From: Pseudacidobacterium ailaaui
GTDB lineage: Bacteria > Acidobacteriota > Terriglobia > Terriglobales > Acidobacteriaceae
Assembly (NCBI RefSeq): GCF_000688455.1
Contig: NZ_JIAL01000001.1
Span: 248,001 to 312,000, forward strand
Direction: 5' to 3'
DNA: 64,000 nucleotides
Positions 28,358-44,430 of the stretch are shown here, piece after piece (position 1 is the first letter of the stretch; each line of letters begins with the position of its first letter). Below the pieces are notes generated by a model that worked only from the letters and a program-made list of their open reading frames with translations, ran no database searches and was not told the DNA's origin. Made by a program: the position numbers and the translations under genes.

Positions 28358-28684
28358 ATGGTTGACAGCCCATGGTTACAGCCACTACTCCCCGGCACCA
28401 TTGCTTTCCTGATTCTCGTGGCGTCCTGTGCCGGAACGATGGCAGCTGCAGAGGTACCGCAGAAGGCCACGGCCGCGGTCAGCGGGACGAGCCTATCGAA
28501 CTGTGTAGTCGAGACAACAGCCACGGGTCCAGTGCATCGTTGCGCACTTGTTGTCGCCGTGAGAACGCCTCGCGCTTCCACGCCCGTGTCGATCACATTG
28601 CCGATCGAAGTCAAAACGGTGACGCAAGCCGCTGTGACACCACTAGATTGGTCAGCCGGATCTTTTGTGCCAGTGAAGAGTTAG
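28358..28684 (+). CDS. Hypothetical exported protein, 3' end replaced by the IS3 insertion
   Basis: About 108 residues from ATG 28358. A hydrophobic segment (PGTIAFLILVASCAGTMAAA) looks like a signal peptide. The body is a Thr/Val-rich beta-type sequence with two Cys. The last codons (VPVKS-stop) lie inside the IS3 left end. Removing the IS and one copy of the 3-bp target duplication lets the frame run on for 15 more residues (QDRHSKIRFLENPTQ) to a TAA at 29972-29974, which is probably the ancestral end. An earlier in-frame start exists at 28226. Function unknown. Confidence 0.55.
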   Translation: MVDSPWLQPLLPGTIAFLILVASCAGTMAAAEVPQKATAAVSGTSLSNCVVETTATGPVHRCALVVAVRTPRASTPVSITLPIEVKTVTQAAVTPLDWSAGSFVPVKS

Positions 28685-29616
28685 TGTAGCGCAGTTATCT
28701 TTGATTTCAGATAGCCGCCGTCGGGGGTGTGGAGAAGTGGGAAACGCGTAGCGGTTTCCACTTCTCCATGCCCCTTGTTGCTTGTGAGCCGTGCTTCTGG
28801 TGCTGGTGGCCGATACCCCAGCGACGAGTGCGGCCGAACTGTGTTGTAGTGGACGCGCCAGCGTTCGGCCAGCACGCGCAGTTCCTTCAGCGAGTAGAAA
28901 ATCTCTCCATTCAAAAACTCATCCCGGAGCTTCGAGTTGAACGACTCGCAATAGCCGTTTTCCCATGGCGAGCCAGGTTCGATATACAGTGTCTTCGCGC
29001 CCGTGTTGATCAGCCACTGACGCAGGTCTTTGGCTACGAACTCGGGGCCGTTGTCCGAACGTAGGTGCTCAGGCACGCCACGCTCAATCATCACATCGGC
29101 CAAGGATTCGATCACCCGGGCCGAGGTCCAGCGTCGTTCGGCGCGGATCAACAGACATTCGCGGCTGTATTCATCGATCAGGTTTAACAGCCGCACGCTG
29201 CGACCATTATGGGTACGCACGCTCACGAAGTCATAGCTCCACACATGGTTTCTGTGCGTTGGCCGCAGCCTTACGCACGATCCATCGTTGAGCCACAACC
29301 GCCCGCGTGGTTTCTGCTTCTTCGGTACTTTCAGCCCCTCGCGACGCCAGATACGCTCGACCCGATCCTTGCCCACCGGCCAGCCTGCATGATTGAGCAG
29401 CGCTGTGACCCGGCGGTAACCATATCGCCCATACTGTTTGGCTAATGCGATGATGGCCTGCGTCAGTTGATCTTCGTCGGCTCGCTGTGTCGGTTGGTAG
29501 CGTTGCGTGCCGCGTGGCTGATTCACCAATCGACACGCATGCCGCTCCGCCATCCCATACTGTTGCTGCGCATGAAATACCGCACGACGGCGTCGTTCAG
29601 GGCTTAGAAGTTTCCC
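28681..29616 (-). CDS. IS3 transposase OrfB (catalytic part of OrfAB)
   Basis: The DDE integrase-fold half of the transposase. As an independent frame it has an ATG at 29553. Its frame is open back to the slippery site at 29610-29616, where the upstream residues KLLSPERRRR continue the family sequence, so the functional product is OrfAB made by -1 frameshifting. HTH_21 region (YGRYGYRRVTALL), first catalytic Asp in WSYDFVS, second in SDNGPEF, and Glu in ENGYCESFN are present. Looks active. Confidence 0.92.
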   Translation of the reverse strand, partial: GKLLSPERRRRAVFHAQQQYGMAERHACRLVNQPRGTQRYQPTQRADEDQLTQAIIALAKQYGRYGYRRVTALLNHAGWPVGKDRVERIWRREGLKVPKKQKPRGRLWLNDGSCVRLRPTHRNHVWSYDFVSVRTHNGRSVRLLNLIDEYSRECLLIRAERRWTSARVIESLADVMIERGVPEHLRSDNGPEFVAKDLRQWLINTGAKTLYIEPGSPWENGYCESFNSKLRDEFLNGEIFYSLKELRVLAERWRVHYNTVRPHSSLGYRPPAPEARLTSNKGHGEVETATRFPLLHTPDGGYLKSKITALH

Positions 29617-31407: not shown

Positions 31408-31803
31408 TTAGTGGGGTGTCTGCTGTTGTTCGATGTACTGCCGCACGATGGAGATTGGCGCTCCGCCGCAAGATGAGGCGAAGTAAGACGGCGACCAGAG
31501 AACGCCACGCCAGTAGCGTTTCTGGATGTCGGGCCGCTCCTTGCGCAGCAGGCGGCTGGAAACGCCCTTGAGGCTGTTCACGAGATTGGAGACGGCAACC
31601 TTGGGCGGGTACTCGACCAGCAGATGCACATGATCGTCCTCGCCGTCCATCTCGATCAGTTGCGCCTCGAAGTCGGCGCAGACTTTGGCGAACATCGTGC
31701 GCAGCCGGTTGATGGCGTCGCCATCGAACACGTCGCGACGATACTTCGATACAAAGACCAAGTGAACGTGCATCTTGAAAACGCAATGCCTGCCATGCCG
31801 CAT
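31408..31803 (-). CDS. tnpA: IS200/IS605 transposase TnpA (Y1 HUH single-strand transposase)
   Basis: 131 residues from ATG 31803. The HUH metal motif is HVH (about residues 58-60) in DDHVHLLVEYPP. The nucleophilic Tyr is at about residue 123 in IVRQYIEQQ. VSKYRRDVF and the LNSLKGVSSRLLRK-like helix are typical. The longer open frame upstream on this strand is antisense to tnpB and not coding. All catalytic residues are present. Confidence 0.93.
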   Translation of the reverse strand: MRHGRHCVFKMHVHLVFVSKYRRDVFDGDAINRLRTMFAKVCADFEAQLIEMDGEDDHVHLLVEYPPKVAVSNLVNSLKGVSSRLLRKERPDIQKRYWRGVLWSPSYFASSCGGAPISIVRQYIEQQQTPH

Positions 31804-31809
31804 ATCGTT

Positions 31810-33090
31810 ATGCAGCGACTCCAAGCCTTCCAATACGAACTGATGCCAACCGGCGAACAGCAGCGCCAAATGCGCCGCTTCGCCGGATCGTGCCGGTTCG
31901 TGTTCAACAAGGCGCTGGCGTTGCAGAAAGAACGCTACGAGCAAGGTGAGAAGAAGCTCGGTTATGCGGGCCTGTGCAAGCTGCTCACCGAATGGCGCAA
32001 CAGCCCGGACACAGCGTGGCTGGCTGATGCGCCCATCCACCCGCTGCAACAAACGCTCAAGGACTTGGAGCGCGCGTATTCCAACTTCTTCGCCAAGCGG
32101 GCCGGCTTCCCGCGCTTCAAGAAGAAAGGCCAGTCGGACGGCTTCCGCTACCCCGACCCGAAACAGATCAAACTGGAGCAGCACAACAACCGCATCTTGC
32201 TGCCCAAGCTCGGCTGGCTGCGCTACCGCAACAGCCGGGAGGCGCTGGGCAGGGTGAAAAACGTCACCGTGAGCCATCGGTGCGGCAAATGGTTCGTGAG
32301 CATCCAGACCGCGCGCGAGGTCGAGCAGCCCGTGCCGCAGGGTGGCGCGGTCGGTATCGACATGGGCATTGCCCGATTCGCCACTCTCTCGGACGGCACG
32401 TTCGTTGCCCCGCTCAACAGCTTCAAGCGGCACGAAACAGCCTTGCGCAAGGAGCAGCAGGCGATGAGTCGCAAGGTGAAATTCAGCAACAACTGGAAAA
32501 AGGCGAAAGCCCGCGTCCAGAAGATTCATGTCCGCATCGCCAACGCCCGCCGCGACTTCCTCCATAAGACCTCAACCACGATCAGCAAAAACCACGCGAT
32601 GGTGTGTATCGAGGATTTGCGGGTCAGGAATATGTCTAAGTCGGCGGCAGGCGCGGCCGAAAAACCGGGCAGGAATGTTCGGGCCAAGTCTGGCCTGAAC
32701 AAATCCATCCTCGATCAGGGCTGGTTTGAGTTTCGCCGCCAACTGGATTACAAGCTGGCGTGGCGTGGCGGCTGGCTCATTGTTCTACCGCCGCAGAACA
32801 CGAGCCGTACCTGCCCGTGCTGCGGCCATGTCTCGACGGACAACCGCCAGACACAAGCCCGGTTTGAGTGCGTAGAATGTGGTTTCGAGGAAAACGCCGA
32901 TGTCGTCGCCGCAATCAACATCCTCTCTCGCGGGATGAAAAAATTGCGAGACGAAGGGCAGGACATGGCGCACGCTTGCGTCGGGTGCGAAAGCACAGCC
33001 CGGATCGCTTGTGAAGTGAGCGATGCAGTAGGGTCGCCAGCAGCAGGAACCCACCGAAGCGACTCAGGGGCGGCTCGATGCCGCGCCTGA
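31810..33090 (+). CDS. tnpB: RNA-guided nuclease TnpB of the IS200/IS605 element
   Basis: 426 residues from ATG 31810. The RuvC catalytic residues are D184 (GIDMG), E268 (CIEDL) and D364 (ENADVVAA). The zinc ribbon CPCCGH...CVECG sits at about residues 335-357. TnpB proteins are the likely ancestors of Cas12 and cut DNA using an RNA made from the element's right end. Here the coding sequence runs almost to the right-end hairpin, so the guide scaffold overlaps the 3' part of the gene. The C-terminal 40 residues beyond the RuvC core are low-complexity. Confidence 0.94.
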   Translation: MQRLQAFQYELMPTGEQQRQMRRFAGSCRFVFNKALALQKERYEQGEKKLGYAGLCKLLTEWRNSPDTAWLADAPIHPLQQTLKDLERAYSNFFAKRAGFPRFKKKGQSDGFRYPDPKQIKLEQHNNRILLPKLGWLRYRNSREALGRVKNVTVSHRCGKWFVSIQTAREVEQPVPQGGAVGIDMGIARFATLSDGTFVAPLNSFKRHETALRKEQQAMSRKVKFSNNWKKAKARVQKIHVRIANARRDFLHKTSTTISKNHAMVCIEDLRVRNMSKSAAGAAEKPGRNVRAKSGLNKSILDQGWFEFRRQLDYKLAWRGGWLIVLPPQNTSRTCPCCGHVSTDNRQTQARFECVECGFEENADVVAAINILSRGMKKLRDEGQDMAHACVGCESTARIACEVSDAVGSPAAGTHRSDSGAARCRA

Positions 33091-33133: not shown

Positions 33134-33256
33134 GCGCGCTGGTATGTGCCTTCCGCGATGCAATCTGGAAATCGCCGGCGCGATCCGATGAAAATGGACC
33201 TGATCAAATGTCCCATGAGTTGAATTGGCAGAGCGGTTTCCAGCCCGCCGGCGGGA

Positions 33257-33367
33257 TGTCCTGAAATGGGACGCGTATTTCTGATGTCCCATTCTGGGAA
33301 GTATGGACCGCATAACAATATCAATCACTTAAAAGGCAGGGCTTGATTCAGCTTCCCATTTTGGGAA
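33257..33367 (+). promoter_or_regulatory. Cluster of three similar palindromes, probable upstream activator sites
   Basis: Site A at 33257-33272 (GTCC...GGAC arms, degenerate), site B at 33287-33299 (TCCCA-TTC-TGGGA) and site C at 33353-33367 (TTCCCA-TTT-TGGGAA) share the plan TCCCA-N3-TGGGA. A TCCCA half-site lies at 33211-33215. They lie 75-190 bases before a sigma-54 promoter, the normal place for activator binding. Confidence 0.65.
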
Positions 33368-33442
33368 TGAGCCCTCTTCACCGCCAATTCCCTTTTCCGA
33401 ACAAGTCGTTTTGTTTGAACCGTTTACGGAAAGGTCGCAGTT

Positions 33443-33458
33443 TGGCAAGAAGCCTGCA
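33443..33458 (+). promoter_or_regulatory. Sigma-54 (-24/-12) promoter of the DUF1800/DUF1501 genes
   Basis: TGGCAAGAAGCCTGCA has the invariant GG and GC with the correct 12-base spacing and matches the consensus (TGGCACR-N4-TTGCW) at most positions. It lies about 270 bases before the DUF1800 start. Transcription from it would also cover the small frame at 33504. Confidence 0.75.
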
Positions 33459-33503
33459 CATTCCTGTGAGCAGAAGATGTCAGCTCGACACTAAAGGAAC
33501 ATC

Positions 33504-33659
33504 ATGCACATTTCTTCTTGCTGTTATTACTGCCTTGCCGAAAACTCACGCGAGCCCATTTGCTGGTTTCCAGCCGACGCATTCGTCTACCGATTGAACC
33601 AGCACTTCGGACGACCCAGCCCTCATTGCTTGCCGATGGCGCAAGTTGGTGCGCCCTGA
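33504..33659 (+). CDS. Possible 51-residue Cys-rich leader peptide
   Basis: ATG 33504 is preceded by AAAGGA at a good distance. The product starts MHISSCCYYCLAENS and has five Cys, several aromatic residues and no membrane segment. It would be the first frame of the sigma-54 transcript. A chance frame cannot be ruled out. Confidence 0.35.
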   Translation: MHISSCCYYCLAENSREPICWFPADAFVYRLNQHFGRPSPHCLPMAQVGAP

Positions 33660-33727: not shown

Positions 33728-35902
33728 ATGGCTATACGTGTGTATTCGTGTATAGGAAGAGCTCTCTTGCCTTTAATTTTTGCTGGATATTGTATCGGAT
33801 GCGGAAGCAAAGGCGGGACAGGAGCCCCAACACTGTCGATTACTGGCCCGGCACAGGTACGCCTTGGCGGAACAGCACAGTATGCAATCACCGATACAGG
33901 TGCTTCAAGCCCGTCTGTGGTGTGGACAGTGACGGGTGGCGGAACAATTTCTTCTGCGGGTCTTTACACAGCACCTCCAGTTACGGGGTCAGTCGGAGTA
34001 GCCACGATATCTGCCTACCTCGCCAGCAATCCGAGCATTGCGGCGTCGGTCAGCGTATCGGTGATTAACCCAATACCATCTATCAGCACGGTGTCCGTGG
34101 ATGTGGGCGAGTTAGCATCATCGATCACAGTGAAAGGATCCGGCTTTGTCCCCGGATCCACGTTGCTCATCGGCCAGACAGCGGTGACGCCAAGCTCTAT
34201 TACCTCTACTTCAATGGTCGCTCGAATATCGACATTGAGTCTTCAAATGAATAGCATTCCCGTCCAGGTGACGAATCCTGATCCCGGATCAGCTTCGTCA
34301 AACGTGGCTACGCTCGCAATCCCGCAACCAGCAGCAACGATCACCGCTGCGACGCGACTTCTGGATCAGGCGAGCTTTGGGCCAACTCTCGCGGCTGTCT
34401 CCCATGTACAAAGCGTGGGCATTAATGGGTACCTGCAAGAGCAGTTTGCCATGCAGCCCTCATTGGTTACTGAAATGCCGAATACCTACGATCAGTATGC
34501 CCACATGTACCCAAGCTGCCAAAATATACCCGACTGCGCATCCGATGACTATTTCATACAAAATATGATCTTTGCCCCGGATCAGCTGCGCCAACGGGTC
34601 GTCTTTGCATTATCCAAGATTTGGACCGTATCTCTAACGAGCGTGCCATCGTTTTATTTTCCTCATTTTCTCAATCTTCTGAGCGAGGATGCATTTAGCA
34701 ATTGGCGGCAGATCATGCAGGACGTCACAATGTCTCCTGCGATGGGGATCTTTCTGAATTCGGTCAACAACATGGTCCAGAGCCCCACCGACCGCCCGAA
34801 TGAGAATTATGCGCGCGAATTACTGCAGGTATTTTCTACTGGGACCTCACGCCTCAATGAAGATGGAAGTTTGCAGGTGGATGGATCTGGAAATCCGATT
34901 CCCATATACACTCAGGCGCAGATCACAGCCATGGCTAAGGTCTTTACCGGTCTTACGTTTGCTAACGAAGATTGTTCAACTCCATCGGCTCCGATTTATT
35001 TGCCACCGAATGACAACACTGTGTTCGGTGCGAATTGTCCGATGGCCATCCTGGATTCATATCACGATCACACCGAAAAGCACATCATTAACGGTGTGGT
35101 TCTACCTGCAGGGCAGAACACTCAGGCTGACATTTCACAAACTCTGGATGCCATCTTTCAGGACCCAGACCTGCCCCCTTTCATTGTTAAGCAGTTGATC
35201 CAGAATCTGGTAAAGAGTGACCCCAGTCCGGACTATGTGCAGCGGATTGTCAATGTATTTAAAGACAACGGCTCAGGCGTGCGTGGTGACATGAAAGCCG
35301 TCCTTCAGGCGATTCTGCTCGACCCAGAGGCGCGTGCTGGGGATGACCCCAGTGCAGAAAGGACGGATGCCGGCCATCTCAGAGACCCAATTCTTTGGTT
35401 CATGGCAGTCACGAGAGCACTCAATCCATCGTTACTGGGCCCGCCCAATGATATTAGCGCGGTCAACTACCTCGACTACTATTTGTATCTGTTCGGTGAA
35501 CAGCCCAATGATGCTCCTAGCGTTTTTGGTTACTATTCGCCACAGTATCGAATCTCTGGAGCCAACATCCCAGCACCGGAATTTGAGTTGGAACTACCAG
35601 CCACTCTGTTCAATGAGGCGCAGATTCTCGACGCATATATTCTTACGAACCGCATGAGCCCTCAATCCGATGGAGCCACGATATATTTTGACACTTCGGC
35701 CAGCGGTACTCTTGGCACACTTGCATCGCAAGGGCCCGATGCCCTACTGGATGCCATCAGCGTGCTGTTCTATCACGGTCAGATGACTTCGGCGATGCGG
35801 ACTGCGTTCGAGGGTGCCTTGCAAGGGCTTCCTCCGGACCAAATGGTTCGTGTTGCTGTATATCTGGCGGCAACATCTCCACAATTTCGGGTCATTCAAT
35901 AA
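33728..35902 (+). CDS. DUF1800-family lipoprotein with N-terminal Ig-like and IPT domains
   Basis: 724 residues from ATG 33728 (AAAGGA eight bases before; the TTG at 33722 is less likely). The signal peptide ends at a lipobox-like YCIGC. An Ig-like domain spans about residues 35-115 (TLSITGPAQVRLGGTAQY). An IPT/TIG-like domain follows at about 118-200. The DUF1800 domain starts at about residue 205 (AATRLLDQASFGPTLAAV) and includes LRQRVVFALSKIW and NENYARELLQVFSTG. DUF1800 proteins are secreted, of unknown activity, and are nearly always paired with a DUF1501 protein, as here. Expression probably depends on sigma-54. Confidence 0.9.
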   Translation: MAIRVYSCIGRALLPLIFAGYCIGCGSKGGTGAPTLSITGPAQVRLGGTAQYAITDTGASSPSVVWTVTGGGTISSAGLYTAPPVTGSVGVATISAYLASNPSIAASVSVSVINPIPSISTVSVDVGELASSITVKGSGFVPGSTLLIGQTAVTPSSITSTSMVARISTLSLQMNSIPVQVTNPDPGSASSNVATLAIPQPAATITAATRLLDQASFGPTLAAVSHVQSVGINGYLQEQFAMQPSLVTEMPNTYDQYAHMYPSCQNIPDCASDDYFIQNMIFAPDQLRQRVVFALSKIWTVSLTSVPSFYFPHFLNLLSEDAFSNWRQIMQDVTMSPAMGIFLNSVNNMVQSPTDRPNENYARELLQVFSTGTSRLNEDGSLQVDGSGNPIPIYTQAQITAMAKVFTGLTFANEDCSTPSAPIYLPPNDNTVFGANCPMAILDSYHDHTEKHIINGVVLPAGQNTQADISQTLDAIFQDPDLPPFIVKQLIQNLVKSDPSPDYVQRIVNVFKDNGSGVRGDMKAVLQAILLDPEARAGDDPSAERTDAGHLRDPILWFMAVTRALNPSLLGPPNDISAVNYLDYYLYLFGEQPNDAPSVFGYYSPQYRISGANIPAPEFELELPATLFNEAQILDAYILTNRMSPQSDGATIYFDTSASGTLGTLASQGPDALLDAISVLFYHGQMTSAMRTAFEGALQGLPPDQMVRVAVYLAATSPQFRVIQ

Positions 35903-35912
35903 GGGGGAGCTT

Positions 35913-37250
35913 ATGAATCAATCACGGAGAGAGTTTATAAAGCACCTGGGATTTCTGAGCGGCGCAGCAGCCTTCTCGCAATTGGCTGCGCTGGCCCATG
36001 CGCCTGCACAAACTATATCGGGTAACGACTACAAAGCCATTGTGTGCCTGTTTCTGTATGGCGGCAACGACTCTGGCAATATGCTGGTACCCTTTGATGC
36101 AACAAACTACGCCCTGTATTCAAAGAGCCGCGGTTCCCTGGCCTTAGGGCAATCGCAGTTACTTCCCTTGCAGGGCTTACCATATGCAATCCATCCCAGT
36201 ATGCCTGAAGTGCAAACGATGTTTGCTCAAAAGGACTTGGCCTTCGTCGTTAACATGGGCCCGCTGGTTACCCCATTATCGAAGAATCAGTACCTCGCTG
36301 GCTCGGTACCCTTACCCCAGAATCTCTTTTCTCATCCGGATCAGCAGTCCCTCATGCAGACAGGCGCCTTTGTATCCGGGGCCGGCAATGGGTGGGGAGG
36401 AAGTTTCATCGATGCGTTGCCAACAAACTGTAAAGGGGGGGTGCTCCCCCAGGCCATATCATATGCGGGTGGCACTGTCTTTATTAACGGGCCGCAGTCC
36501 ACAGGATTTATCGCGCCCAGTAATCCAGGAGCGAGTGCATGCCAGGAAGGCGCCGCATGCGCTGCCGTGCAAGAGGCTGCTGCGAAGATCGCGGCATGTG
36601 AAAACAGTGTTGTGCTTGTGCAACAAGACGCAAGCATTATAAACACCATTAATCAAGAGAACCAAGCATATGCTCAAGTCCTTTCGGGTGTGTCGCCTCT
36701 GCAGACTCAATTCTCACCAGGCGTTGGCTCAGCTCTACAGCAAGTGGCGCAACTGATCCAGGTAAGAGATAAGGTTGGTGCTCCGCGCCAAGTGTTCTTC
36801 GTAGGGCTTGGGAGCTTCGACACTCACGCGACACAATTGGATTATCACGCGCAGCTGTTAAAGAACCTGAGCAGTGGACTCTCCTCTTGGAAGCAGGCCG
36901 CTGAAGAGCTCGGAATCTGGAATAACGTAGTGTTGCTGACCTTGTCGGACTTCAACCGGACGCTGATGGCGAATTCTTCTGGAGGCAGCGATCATGCCTG
37001 GGGAGGCCACCAGATCGTGATGGGTGGGCCAGTGCAAGGCGGATCTGTATACGGCACTTTCCCAACACTGGAGTTGGGCGGCCCAGACGATGTTGATACC
37101 GTTGGACGCTTGCTACCCACTACATCTCTTACGCAGGTCTTGGCCGAGCTCGCGACCTGGTTTGGCGTGCCAGCAAGCAGTATTGCTTCCTTGCTGCCCA
37201 ATCTCATTAATTTTCAAAGTCCAAGCGTCGGCTTTATTCGAGCAAGCTGA
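35913..37250 (+). CDS. DUF1501 (sulfatase-like) Tat-secreted protein
   Basis: 445 residues from ATG 35913, with AAGGGGGA just upstream. The twin-arginine signal (SRREFIKHLGFLSGAAAF) predicts Tat export. The body has VCLFLYGGNDSGNMLVP and the metal-type motifs GLGSFDTHATQ, LLTLSDFNRTL and SDHAWGGHQIVMGG, of the alkaline-phosphatase/sulfatase-like fold. It is 10 bases after the DUF1800 gene, so the pair is an operon. The joint function is unknown; a hydrolase acting on surface material is the usual guess. Confidence 0.9.
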   Translation: MNQSRREFIKHLGFLSGAAAFSQLAALAHAPAQTISGNDYKAIVCLFLYGGNDSGNMLVPFDATNYALYSKSRGSLALGQSQLLPLQGLPYAIHPSMPEVQTMFAQKDLAFVVNMGPLVTPLSKNQYLAGSVPLPQNLFSHPDQQSLMQTGAFVSGAGNGWGGSFIDALPTNCKGGVLPQAISYAGGTVFINGPQSTGFIAPSNPGASACQEGAACAAVQEAAAKIAACENSVVLVQQDASIINTINQENQAYAQVLSGVSPLQTQFSPGVGSALQQVAQLIQVRDKVGAPRQVFFVGLGSFDTHATQLDYHAQLLKNLSSGLSSWKQAAEELGIWNNVVLLTLSDFNRTLMANSSGGSDHAWGGHQIVMGGPVQGGSVYGTFPTLELGGPDDVDTVGRLLPTTSLTQVLAELATWFGVPASSIASLLPNLINFQSPSVGFIRAS

Positions 37251-37597: not shown

Positions 37598-37645
37598 TGG
37601 TCGGGGCGGAGGGATTCGAACCCCCGACCCTCTGCTCCCAAAATA
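37598..37645 (-). pseudogene. 3' half of tRNA-Pro (TGG), attachment-site remnant
   Basis: On the minus strand TTTGGGA (anticodon loop, TGG), the 3' anticodon arm, a complete T arm GGGGG-TTCGAAT-CCCTC and acceptor strand CGCCCCG-A-CCA are intact, but the 5' half is replaced by unrelated AT-rich sequence. Such 3' fragments mark an att site. By orientation the integrated DNA should lie at higher coordinates. Confidence 0.85.
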
Positions 37646-41408: not shown

Positions 41409-42044
41409 TTAAGCCGTATCTGATAGCAGATTTGAAGGAAACAATTGATTTTGCGCAGCAAAAAGCGCCAAACTCAATCGATCAAATGTTCCTGTCTTAC
41501 GATAAACGCTGCGCAGATGATTCTTAACTGTCTGTTCAGTGGTCTGCATCTTCGCGGCAATATCGCTGGTTTTCCAGTTCTGCAGCACATAGGCAACAAT
41601 CAGCCTTTCTTTGCGAGAAAGCATACTGAAGATTTGGCTGCTGATTGCTTGCCGATAAAGAGACGCCAAAATATCAGCCGGCATCTGCAGATACCTGTCG
41701 TTTTTCAAAACCTTTTGCACACAGTCAATGAGTGCGAGAGAACTCGATTGACGATAAAAAATGCCATTCACTCCGAGTTCCAGCCAAGAGCGGGGTGATT
41801 CTCCGCTTTCAAGAAGGACGATAGAACGACATCCCATAGTTTGCATGTGAGGAATTAGGGCCTGCCAATCGAATGCTGAAGAACAAAGGAGAATAGAGTG
41901 GCGGAAATAATTTAGCAACTGATGCAAGCGAACCTGGTTATCACATTTCGCAATGACTTGAATATTGTCCTCGTGCGCAAGGATGTGTTCCATCCCAGCA
42001 CAAAAAAGAGATTGATTATCTGCGAGTATGACATTTGTTTTCAA
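41409..42044 (-). CDS. LuxR-type response regulator with degenerate receiver domain
   Basis: 211 residues. The N-terminal receiver-like domain (1-120) keeps one acidic residue of the first pair (D9), but the phospho-acceptor position is Cys54 (SILLCSSAF) and the conserved Lys is replaced (GIFYRQSS). It cannot be phosphorylated in the usual way. The C-terminal LuxR HTH (LSRKERLIVAYVLQNWKTSDIAAKM, then TVKNHLRSVYRKTG) is intact. It is divergent from the sigma-54 activator gene. Confidence 0.85.
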   Translation of the reverse strand: MKTNVILADNQSLFCAGMEHILAHEDNIQVIAKCDNQVRLHQLLNYFRHSILLCSSAFDWQALIPHMQTMGCRSIVLLESGESPRSWLELGVNGIFYRQSSSLALIDCVQKVLKNDRYLQMPADILASLYRQAISSQIFSMLSRKERLIVAYVLQNWKTSDIAAKMQTTEQTVKNHLRSVYRKTGTFDRLSLALFAAQNQLFPSNLLSDTA

Positions 42045-42236
42045 GGGAAATGTCCTACCTTATCACGTGAGTTGGGCTAATAGGCTAATTTTTGTCGAGT
42101 CATAGCCGCATGTCTAGTTACCGAAGTGTGGAGGGTTTAAGCGAAAACCGCAAATTGCTGCTTGTAGGAAGCGGCATTCCCTAGAATGCTAACCACAACC
42201 CCCTTTTCCACTATGTCTGAAGAAATCTGTATCTTG

Positions 42237-43622
42237 ATGTCTGTTCTGATTGTGGATGAAGATGCAGCGGTGCGTTCAGCCTGCTGTGAAATTGTTTCAT
42301 CCAAAGGATGGGCCACCTACAGCGCCCAGGACACAGCCTCTGCGCTTGCTCTTCTCAGAGGAAACAGTATGGATGTGGTGCTTCTTGGTCTGAAGGGCAC
42401 GGACATTCCTGGACTGGAACTCCTGAAGCAGGTGCGGGACCTGCACCCGGAAACGGCCATCGTCGTCATGACCGCTTATGCCACGGTCCCCTCTGCGGTA
42501 GAAGCCATGCGTCTGGGTGCTTCTGATTACCTTACCAAGCCCTTTACCATGGATGAGCTGCTGGCGGTCCTGGACCGTGCTGCAGAGAAACGTGCGCTGG
42601 ACATTGCCAGTCGGCGTCTGCGAGAAAAGCTACGCACGCAGCAGGGTCTGAGCAACATCATAGGCCGCAGTGCGGAAATGGACAGGATCTACCGCATCCT
42701 CTCCAAAGTGGCGCTGACGACGCACCCGGTCCTCATTATGGGAGAGAGCGGCACGGGCAAGGAGCTGGTGGCGCGGGCCATTCACAATCACGGCCCGAAT
42801 GCCGGAAAACCATTCGTCCCGGTGGACTGCAGCTCGATTGTACCCACGCTGATCGAAAATGAGCTTTTTGGGCATGTAAAGGGAGCATTTACCGGGGCAA
42901 ACCGCTCGCGGGACGGTCTGCTGGTTTCTGCTGCCGGGGGCACGGTCTTTCTCGATGAGATTGGTGAAATGCCACTGGACCTTCAGGCAAAACTTCTGCG
43001 CGCCCTGCAGGAAAAAGAGGTGCGACCGGTAGGGGCCACGCACCGCGTCCCCATTCACGTCCGCATTCTGGCTGCTACCAACCGAAACCTTCCGGAAATG
43101 GTGGAACAGGGACGCTTTCGCAAAGACCTTTTTTATCGCCTGAATGTGGTCAATCTGCGGCTGCCGCCTCTGCGGCAGCGGCGCGAGGACATTCCCCTGC
43201 TCATTGCCCACTTTCTGGAGCGCAAAAACCGTGAGTACGGCAAGACCTTCCGTGTGAGTGATGAGATGATGCGCGTGTTGATGGAATACGATTGGCCGGG
43301 AAATGTCCGTGAACTGGAACATCTGATTGACCGTTCCTGCGCGTATTGCTCCGGCAACCTGCTTCAGCTGGGCGATGCCCCGACGGCGCTCATTGAATTC
43401 TATGCAAACACACGTCCGCGTCCCCTGACTACAGAGGCCGCTCCATCGGATACTTCGCTGCTCTCTCCCTCGGTGACCCCTCTGGTGGAACTGGAAAAAC
43501 AGGCCATCCTGAGTGCTTTGCAGGCATTGCAGGGCGATAAGCTGGCCGCGGCCAGGCTGCTTGGCATTGGCAAAACCACCCTCTACCGCAAAATCAAGGA
43601 ATATGGCCTCGGCAATGCATGA
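42237..43622 (+). CDS. Sigma-54-dependent activator (NtrC family) lacking the receiver Asp
   Basis: 461 residues from ATG 42237 ([14 protein letters not shown]); 42186 and 42213 are alternative starts. The receiver domain (1-115) has the acidic pocket and YLTKPF, but the phospho-acceptor Asp is Gly51 ([10 protein letters not shown]). The AAA+ domain (about 135-370) has Walker A GESGTGKE, the sigma-54 contact loop GAFTGA, and Walker [13 protein letters not shown] Fis-type HTH ([22 protein letters not shown]) ends the protein. It should activate -24/-12 promoters without classical phosphorylation. The promoter at 33443 is the only good candidate target seen in the window. Confidence 0.93.
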
Positions 43623-43638
43623 GAAAGGGCAATCCATA

Positions 43639-44430
43639 TTACGGCCAGTTTGGAAATGGCTGTCGTGAAGAGTAACGAAATTCCAGGATCAGGTCTCTGA
43701 CGCGACTGCGGCGGAGATCGAGATCATGCACTAAGCGCTCAAGGGCTGGTATGTCGTTACCGAACCACTCCGGCGGAATGGAAAAGGCGAAGTTCAGAAG
43801 TGTCTCAAGGGAGCATTCTTCGATCCGCGTGAGCCATGGTTCAAAACTGTGCCATCCCGTCACCTGCCGGTACACGACATTTCGCGCATAGGCTCCGCGA
43901 AGCGGAGCATCTTTAAAGCGCCATTCGCCTCCGTTAAAGCACATCCCCTGGTCGATGTGAATCGCTTGATAACGGTTGCGGACTTTGACAAACACCGCTT
44001 GTCGTCCATCAGCGTTTCCCGTCCATCGATCAAAGGCCAAGGCTCCGGCAAACGAGGAAAGATTGGTCACGGCCAGAAGCAGATGTTCGGGCAGGTAATC
44101 AACGACTGTACCGGGCAGCAATCCTCCACACAATCGGGATCCGAACTGCACACCTGGTTGGCAAGGCTCATAGTGTTGTCCTAGGTGGAAGTTCAATTCC
44201 GGATGGTCGTCGAGAAATTCTTGGGAAACGAGGACTCGTTCGTAATCAGGAATTGGGAGTCCTATATGCTTCATCAGCAATGCCCCAAACCATTCATTGG
44301 CCAACACCCGCGGATGCTGCGGATTGTTCTGAAACTTGACAATATAGGGGTGACCGTCTGAGCAAAGCAATAAAAAGCTCTGGGTTTCTCCCCGCATTTT
44401 GCGCAACACCTGTGTCGCTGTAACCATCAT
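43639..44430 (-). CDS. HipA-like kinase domain protein (HipA_2 type)
   Basis: 263 residues. FLLLCSDGHPYIVKFQNN with a likely nucleotide Lys, LANEWFGALLMKHIGLP, FDRWTGNADGRQAVF (catalytic loop D...N-A-D) and IHIDQGMCFN (metal Asp) follow the reduced HipA-kinase plan. HipA proteins phosphorylate tRNA synthetases or other targets. In this subgroup the targets are unknown. It follows a DUF3037-like gene by 72 bases, a pairing seen in this subgroup, and could be a toxin-like module. Confidence 0.8.
   Translation of the reverse strand: MMVTATQVLRKMRGETQSFLLLCSDGHPYIVKFQNNPQHPRVLANEWFGALLMKHIGLPIPDYERVLVSQEFLDDHPELNFHLGQHYEPCQPGVQFGSRLCGGLLPGTVVDYLPEHLLLAVTNLSSFAGALAFDRWTGNADGRQAVFVKVRNRYQAIHIDQGMCFNGGEWRFKDAPLRGAYARNVVYRQVTGWHSFEPWLTRIEECSLETLLNFAFSIPPEWFGNDIPALERLVHDLDLRRSRVRDLILEFRYSSRQPFPNWP

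Follow-up and report, generated by a model that had tools for sequence, protein, structure and literature searches.

A DUF1800 gene and a DUF1501 gene of Pseudacidobacterium ailaaui stand behind a predicted sigma-54 promoter preceded by copies of a short palindrome, TCCCA-N3-TGGGA. This arrangement raises the question of which regulator reads the sites, and whether it belongs to DUF1800/DUF1501 pairs in general or to something else. We examined the window, a stretch of 64,000 nucleotides corresponding to positions 248,001-312,000 of a one-contig genome of 3,686,523 bases (G000), along with the remainder of this genome and the genomes of relatives. The answer we consider likely is that the palindromes are sites for an NtrC-family response regulator, and that the region at 33.2-33.5 kb, before DUF1800-DUF1501, is a diverged duplicate of this regulator's own autoregulated promoter.

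Promoter and sites before the DUF1800 and DUF1501 genes

The features concerned are listed below. Site offsets are counted from the first T of the box TGGCAAGAAGCCTGCA (33443); "native" denotes the promoter or gene of the regulator elsewhere in this genome, and G017 is a sister species.

33211..33215, plus strand: half-site TCCCA, the most distal, read from the sequence; no native-promoter equivalent established
33259..33271, plus strand: palindrome 1, TCCTGAAATGGGA, two mismatches, at -184 from the -24 box (native -187, G017 -185)
33287..33299, plus strand: palindrome 2, TCCCATTCTGGGA, perfect, at -156 (native -158, G017 -158)
33354..33366, plus strand: palindrome 3, TCCCATTTTGGGA, perfect, at -89 (native -90, G017 -90)
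33435..33447, plus strand: palindrome 4, TCGCAGTTTGGCA, two mismatches, at -8, overlapping the -24 box (native -8)
33443..33458, plus strand: predicted -24/-12 sigma-54 promoter, TGGCAAGAAGCCTGCA, from the sequence and the Sigma54_DBD gene in the genome
33441..33513, plus strand: box and leader, homologous by alignment to the leader of the native regulator (76 columns, 71%)
33504..33659, plus strand: possible leader ORF of 51 aa after TAAAGGA, a candidate from the sequence
33728..35902, plus strand: DUF1800 protein with N-terminal TIG/choice-of-anchor-type repeat (Pfam PF08811, PF01833; NF058597)
35913..37250, plus strand: DUF1501 protein, 10 bp after DUF1800 (Pfam PF07394)
42177..43639, plus strand: duplicated coding sequence of an NtrC-family response regulator (CDS 42186-43622), 99.66% identity over 1463 bp

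A sequence-only reading of this region had described the half-site, three TCCCA-N3-TGGGA palindromes (one degenerate) and the -24/-12 box, and every one of these elements lies where it was placed. That count of three palindromes and a half-site stands as far as it goes, but it missed the fourth palindrome, TCGCAGTTTGGCA, which overlies the -24 box and is a possible autorepression site. The reading of the whole as a sigma-54 promoter with activator sites is supported as well, since the -24 GG and -12 GC are correctly spaced and rpoN is present (a Sigma54_DBD gene was found in all five genomes tested, including this one). Transcription from the box TGGCAAGAAGCCTGCA would be expected to start near 33469. 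The TAAAGGA in the leader is a good ribosome site for the 51-aa ORF; reading by eye shows TCATGCACATTT in the native regulator leader too, with a short ORF whose end overlaps the regulator ATG. Two mobile-element genes lie nearby: an IS605-type TnpB gene upstream (31624-33090), its end some 120-170 bp short of the site array, and an IS3-type integrase gene at 28681-29553.

Taken alone, neither a -24/-12 box nor a loose palindrome is unusual in the window, where loose matches number 219 for the box (234 expected) and 29 for the palindrome (32 expected). The perfect palindrome is a different matter, occurring at five places in all 3,686,523 bases compared with one for the reversed control. Two of these five places stand before DUF1800, 67 bp apart, and the expectation that two of five fall within 100 bp of each other is about 0.0005, a figure calculated after the pair was seen. 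The combined pattern TCCCAN3TGGRA-N60-90-TGGCN8TGC has only two matches in the genome, one at the DUF1800 promoter and the other at the regulator's own promoter, and none in the control. The two other perfect palindromes, 638,876 and 223,773, either lack a box that reaches the set score within the expected range or have, on one strand, only a poor one 140 bp away. The former (L032, 4877-4889) is a lone perfect TCCCATTCTGGGA between penicillin-binding-like and FtsZ-like genes, as named by eye, with no -24/-12 box in the expected range.

The two genes downstream had been called a secretion pair, a description that finds no support here. The DUF1501 N-terminus carries a Tat-type signal, SRREFIK, and the DUF1800 signal is lipoprotein-like (both by eye), which suggests exported proteins and not export machinery. 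DUF1501 gave no PDB match by sequence, and its single-sequence structure model, with a mean pLDDT of 33, is too poor to be of use. GC3 values of 0.53 and 0.56 for DUF1800 and DUF1501, compared with 0.63 for the regulator, are no more than suggestive of a horizontal origin. Just after the DUF1501 gene, at 37600-37640 on the minus strand, there is a tRNA 3'-end-like remnant, GGGTTCGAATCCC, a possible attachment site; no full tRNA is present in that interval.

In the passages of the literature that mention them, DUF1800-DUF1501 operons adjoin bacterial chitin synthases (PMC5122149), and the pair appears in a type VI secretion system (T6SS) table (PMC6653060); these mentions carry nothing on regulation. 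The present genes resemble the operons described in PMC5122149, as far as those passages go, in standing together and in the Tat motif on DUF1501, but no chitin synthase was found among the ten window ORFs scanned with Pfam, three of which matched nothing. The main text of PMC5615132 gave no match for the DUF name searched.

The regulator's own promoter and its likeness to the DUF1800 promoter

A second array of the same sites was found around a palindrome at 2,961,509, upstream of the native gene for an NtrC-family response regulator; the gene on its other side, transcribed divergently, is RNase PH-like by eye. Here the sites lie at -187, -158, -90 and -8 relative to the box TGGCAGCACACCTGCA, and the proximal upstream site has the same letters as palindrome 3, TCCCATTTTGGGA. 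In the sister species, whose regulator is 82% identical, the regulator promoter has sites at -185, -158 and -90 before a weak box, TGGCCATCCGCATGCA.

An array model was built from these three arrays, those of the DUF1800 promoter, the native regulator promoter and G017. When it was run on this genome and that of the sister species, only the three arrays rose above noise (E about 1e-35), and the next match had an E of 0.28. Because the model was trained on these very three, the absence of other matches is the informative part of this result. Applied to upstream stretches from 20 relatives, the model recovered just one regulator promoter in the expected orientation, L101 (E 2e-5); its match in L109 was partial and on the opposite strand. 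With one expected-strand promoter among 20 relatives, the exact layout therefore appears to be kept only near this genus.

Likeness between the two promoters extends beyond the sites. The box and leader at 33441-33513 align with the native leader at a blastn E of 8e-4 in a comparison of 1 kb by 1 kb, and the score of the leader alone was reached by none of 500 shuffles. The leader-to-leader score, 39.3, compares with at most 34.2 for other segments of this genome, the window leader itself apart (1170 segments, from the window and three 10-kb stretches, both strands). Between site 3 and the box the two promoters are only weakly alike. The native and G017 leaders are also alike (none of 500 shuffles reached the score), and homology between the DUF1800-side leader and the G017 leader was not detected (473 of 500). 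The DUF1800/DUF1501 control region thus has the look of a copy, since diverged, of the region that controls the regulator itself, and we infer that the regulator promoter was duplicated in this lineage before the near-identical copying of the coding sequence described below.

Sites for the same regulator might instead have arisen before DUF1800 by convergence, with no promoter duplication. Binding sites evolve easily, identity between the sites is low, and for the stretch from site 3 to the box the score is reached by 12 of 500 shuffles. We nevertheless judge convergence unlikely, given that four sites stand at near-identical offsets in both arrays and that the leader downstream of the box is homologous.

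The sequence-only reading had also pointed to a sigma-54 activator gene about 9 kb downstream. The gene is there, and it proves to be a promoterless, 99.7% identical copy of the native regulator coding sequence: 42177..43639 matches L031 3310-4772, at about 2,959,809-2,961,271 of the genome. The two coding copies differ at four third positions, one of which gives Glu compared with Asp in the native protein. The duplicated stretch begins 9 bp before the ATG. DNA upstream of the 42-kb copy has no detectable homology to the native upstream region (343 of 1000 shuffles reach the score), and 41800-42190 contains no palindrome with up to two mismatches. A 169-aa gene on the minus strand (L031 2802-3311) lies after the native regulator, in the same orientation; it has no copy beside the duplicated regulator in the window, and a similar gene lies near the regulator of G043 (L037 885-1394).

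Of possible binders for the predicted sites, the activator of 42186-43622 is the strongest candidate, since the same array of sites precedes its native copy. The earlier guess at the binder is therefore probably right as a prediction, although the evidence for it lies at the native locus, the 42-kb copy being promoterless. The protein has a receiver (PF00072), a Sigma54_activat domain (PF00158) and a Fis-type HTH (PF02954) by Pfam, and the GAFTGA sigma-54 contact loop can be read in its translation. It falls below the cut-off of every NCBIfam model listed (25 of 107 matches), including AtoC (score 420, cut-off 714), NtrC (417, 559), ZraR (359, 760) and PEP-CTERM (350, 503).

Distribution of the sites among relatives

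A regulator match at E 1e-100 is present in 58 of 60 family genomes (weaker matches include paralogues). For 40 of the 57 family genomes with a match besides this genome, chosen mostly by score order and with some loci at contig ends left out, we took up to 4 kb of DNA before the best match. A cluster was defined as two palindromes with at most two mismatches each, 13-120 bp apart, and the expectation was derived from 25 Markov simulations. Clusters occur in 27 of the 40 genomes, compared with 3.1 in the simulations; the other 13 have none by this definition. TCCCA with a spacer of 3 ranks second by z among 1024 half-sites, after its one-base variant TTCCA. A plain inverted-repeat count was swamped by GC-rich codon patterns, with TCCCA-N3 48th of 6144, and for this reason the simulation-based count was used. 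Relatives of the regulator in named genomes, at 80 loci and with identities of 50% or less, lie outside the family, and among the 61 of these loci with the required length one has a cluster.

By distance before the regulator, clusters were counted at 8 of 40 loci within 0-400 bp, 1 of 40 at 400-1000 bp, 13 of 40 at 1000-1900 bp, 5 of 39 at 1900-2800 bp and 1 of 40 at 2800-4000 bp. In the loci whose ORFs were read, the farther clusters precede a kinase gene.

Spacing was studied in 14 promoters picked by eye, not blind, and including the DUF1800 promoter. In 11 of these the nearest upstream palindrome stands 89-104 bp before the box. The picture over all 41 loci is less clean: offsets of 85-104 were found at 12 loci compared with 8 for the mirror control with a loose box, and at 6 compared with 1 with a stricter box; for offsets of 185-204 the corresponding counts are 11 compared with 2, and 5 compared with 0. 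The position of palindrome 4 also recurs: a TCCCA half-site with at least four of five matches stands at -8 in 6 of the 14 promoters, and at any other offset from -22 to 0 in at most one. The TGC at -12 is missing in 5 of the 14, being replaced by TGTA in L102, L103 and L105, TGTT in L111 and TGAT in L107. A CTTAG word stands about 20 bp before the -24 box in seven of these promoters (L102-L106, L081 and the native one, where the variant is CTTAC).

The palindromes could in principle serve another NtrC-type protein or a repressor, the link to the response regulator being coincidental, and at least one more NtrC-type protein, 42% identical, is encoded in this genome. This is improbable in our judgement: the clusters accompany the response regulator across the family, and its C-terminal helix is conserved, with IGKTTLYRK invariant in 30 of 30 aligned orthologues.

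A second possibility, advanced by the sequence-only reading, is a sigma-54 circuit dedicated to DUF1800/DUF1501 pairs generally. Such a pair does sit behind the array here. DUF1800 homologues were found in 13 of 60 family genomes at E 1e-30 and in 64 of 298 genomes of the order at E 1e-80; both counts include this genome. The highest identity among the matches listed is 47%, and none of 12 pattern matches in named genomes proved to be a relative. We took 900 bp upstream of the best-scoring 39 other loci, 38 after setting aside L067, which has no upstream DNA. The comparison of DUF1800 upstream regions that had been proposed as a check yielded no palindrome cluster with a properly spaced box in any of the 38. 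Weak clusters precede two of the genes (L068 and L158), with no sigma-54-like box 60-130 bp behind them; in L153 a single two-mismatch palindrome precedes a poor box by 90 bp, about 600 bp ahead of the DUF1800 gene, and L070 has one perfect palindrome upstream with no box. The sister species has no DUF1800 homologue at E 1e-30. A general DUF1800 circuit is accordingly very improbable, and the sites accompany the regulator's operon instead. The scarcity of clusters elsewhere and the lack of a homologue in G017 make the DUF1800 link particular to this species, as sampled. Because clusters are frequent at the regulator and only weak and rare at other DUF1800 genes, we assign the sites to the regulator's circuit. 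Most likely, they belong to a conserved autoregulated sigma-54 circuit, of which a duplicated promoter drives DUF1800/DUF1501 here, and the regulator's control of the pair looks like a local acquisition.

Wider searches returned the regulator's own operon repeatedly. A palindrome plus box matched in 15 of 150 family genomes (control, 2). Nine of at least 20 such places were inspected: two, L081 and L089, turned out to be the operon of the regulator itself, L087 is intergenic, and the other six lie in genes and appear chance-like. The place in G047 is also the regulator's operon (L101). A palindrome pair matched in 13 of 200 family genomes (control, 3), and of the matches in G000 and G039, the two examined, that in G039 is the regulator's operon by its place. 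In this genome TCCCA plus box occurs at 37 places (control, 11), which hold two perfect palindromes, both already known, one with one mismatch and one with two (3,129,794). TGGGA plus box occurs at 119 or more places (control, 32), of which 30 loci were scanned. A close-pair scan of 92 loci of this genome, some overlapping, gave a weak pair in L010, L018, L029 and L030 besides the two arrays. The one-mismatch palindrome occurs at 127 places genome-wide compared with 46 for its control, an excess that leaves room for a wider regulon and may be compositional in origin. One further place is a candidate third target: at 1,653,234 (L296, position 1501), TCCCATTTTTGGA, with one mismatch, precedes TGGCAAGGTAATTGCA by 88 bp, and the gene that follows looks by eye like one for an outer-membrane receptor. 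It is unproven as a target, because the 37 places would be expected, as we estimate, to yield about 0.6 matches of this kind.

Kinase, phospho-acceptor and proposed control

ZraS/ZraR is described in the sigma-54 regulon survey PMC12316311 as an autoregulated NtrC-family two-component system with sigma-54 promoters. The present system resembles that type in its regulator with receiver, AAA+ and Fis-type HTH domains, in the sigma-54-like box and upstream sites of the regulator operon in several relatives, and in the kinase gene adjoining the regulator in 8 of 11 genomes tested. The last count comes from one query, taken from G019, at E 1e-8, so that a more diverged kinase elsewhere is possible. 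The exceptions are this genome and G012, where the query had no match, and G017, which has one match on another contig, not adjacent to the regulator; in G002 the match has stops inside the matched stretch. In both genomes of the genus, G000 and G017, no kinase gene lies between promoter and regulator.

Unlike the ZraS/ZraR type, the regulator of this species also lacks the phospho-acceptor Asp, a residue usual but not universal in receivers of such activators. Of 30 aligned receivers, 25 have D at this position, three N, one E and one G, the last being this species, in both copies; the Asp is kept in G017. Replacements are found in different genera, with Asn in L042, L043 and L045, Glu in L052 and Gly in the window regulator. 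In the three Asn loci a kinase homologue still adjoins the regulator. Further differences from ZraS/ZraR, in a comparison of proteins and gene arrangement, are the score below the NCBIfam ZraR cut-off and the promoter, which seems to have been copied to a second operon. Neither Acidobacteri nor DUF1800 nor DUF1501 occurs in the main text of PMC12316311. The sites resemble the palindromic response-regulator sites of Desulfovibrio, given in the text of PMC3333781 as inverted repeats of 4-6 bp, 3-8 bp apart, in being short inverted repeats with a short spacer; TCCCA, TGGGA, TTCCC and GGGAA were not found in that main text.

With no adjacent kinase gene and Gly in place of the acceptor Asp, the regulator is probably phosphorylation-independent in this species, and the amount of regulator, supplied by two coding copies of which one stands behind an array, may therefore set the output. 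Oligomers of the regulator would occupy the sites at -184, -156 and -89, looping would bring them to the sigma-54 polymerase at the -24/-12 box, and their ATP hydrolysis would open the promoter. DUF1800 and DUF1501 levels would then follow the regulator's own expression up and down, and at high regulator levels occupancy of weak site 4 over the -24 box may shut the promoter by occlusion, a negative feedback. Against this best explanation we count the weak box of G017, the promoters without TGC, the degenerate site 4, the Asp present in G017, the 13 family genomes with no cluster, the single expected-strand match of the array model among 20 relatives, the small surplus of offsets 85-104 over the mirror control with a loose box, the weak likeness of the spacers, the lack of homology between the DUF1800-side and G017 leaders, and the one-mismatch palindrome excess.

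A more far-reaching history is offered tentatively, as one we hold rather doubtful: a former two-component system may have lost its adjacent kinase and acceptor Asp and become a dosage-set, phosphorylation-independent sigma-54 switch with a regulon of few promoters, its coding sequence duplicated and its autoregulated promoter copied, along with the repressor site over the -24 box, to an operon for exported proteins.

These findings give DUF1800 and DUF1501 a concrete candidate regulator and a predicted promoter that can be switched on, and they define a motif for an NtrC-family response regulator that is itself conserved. If the duplication is true, the regulon of this regulator would have grown through a copy of the regulator's own promoter.
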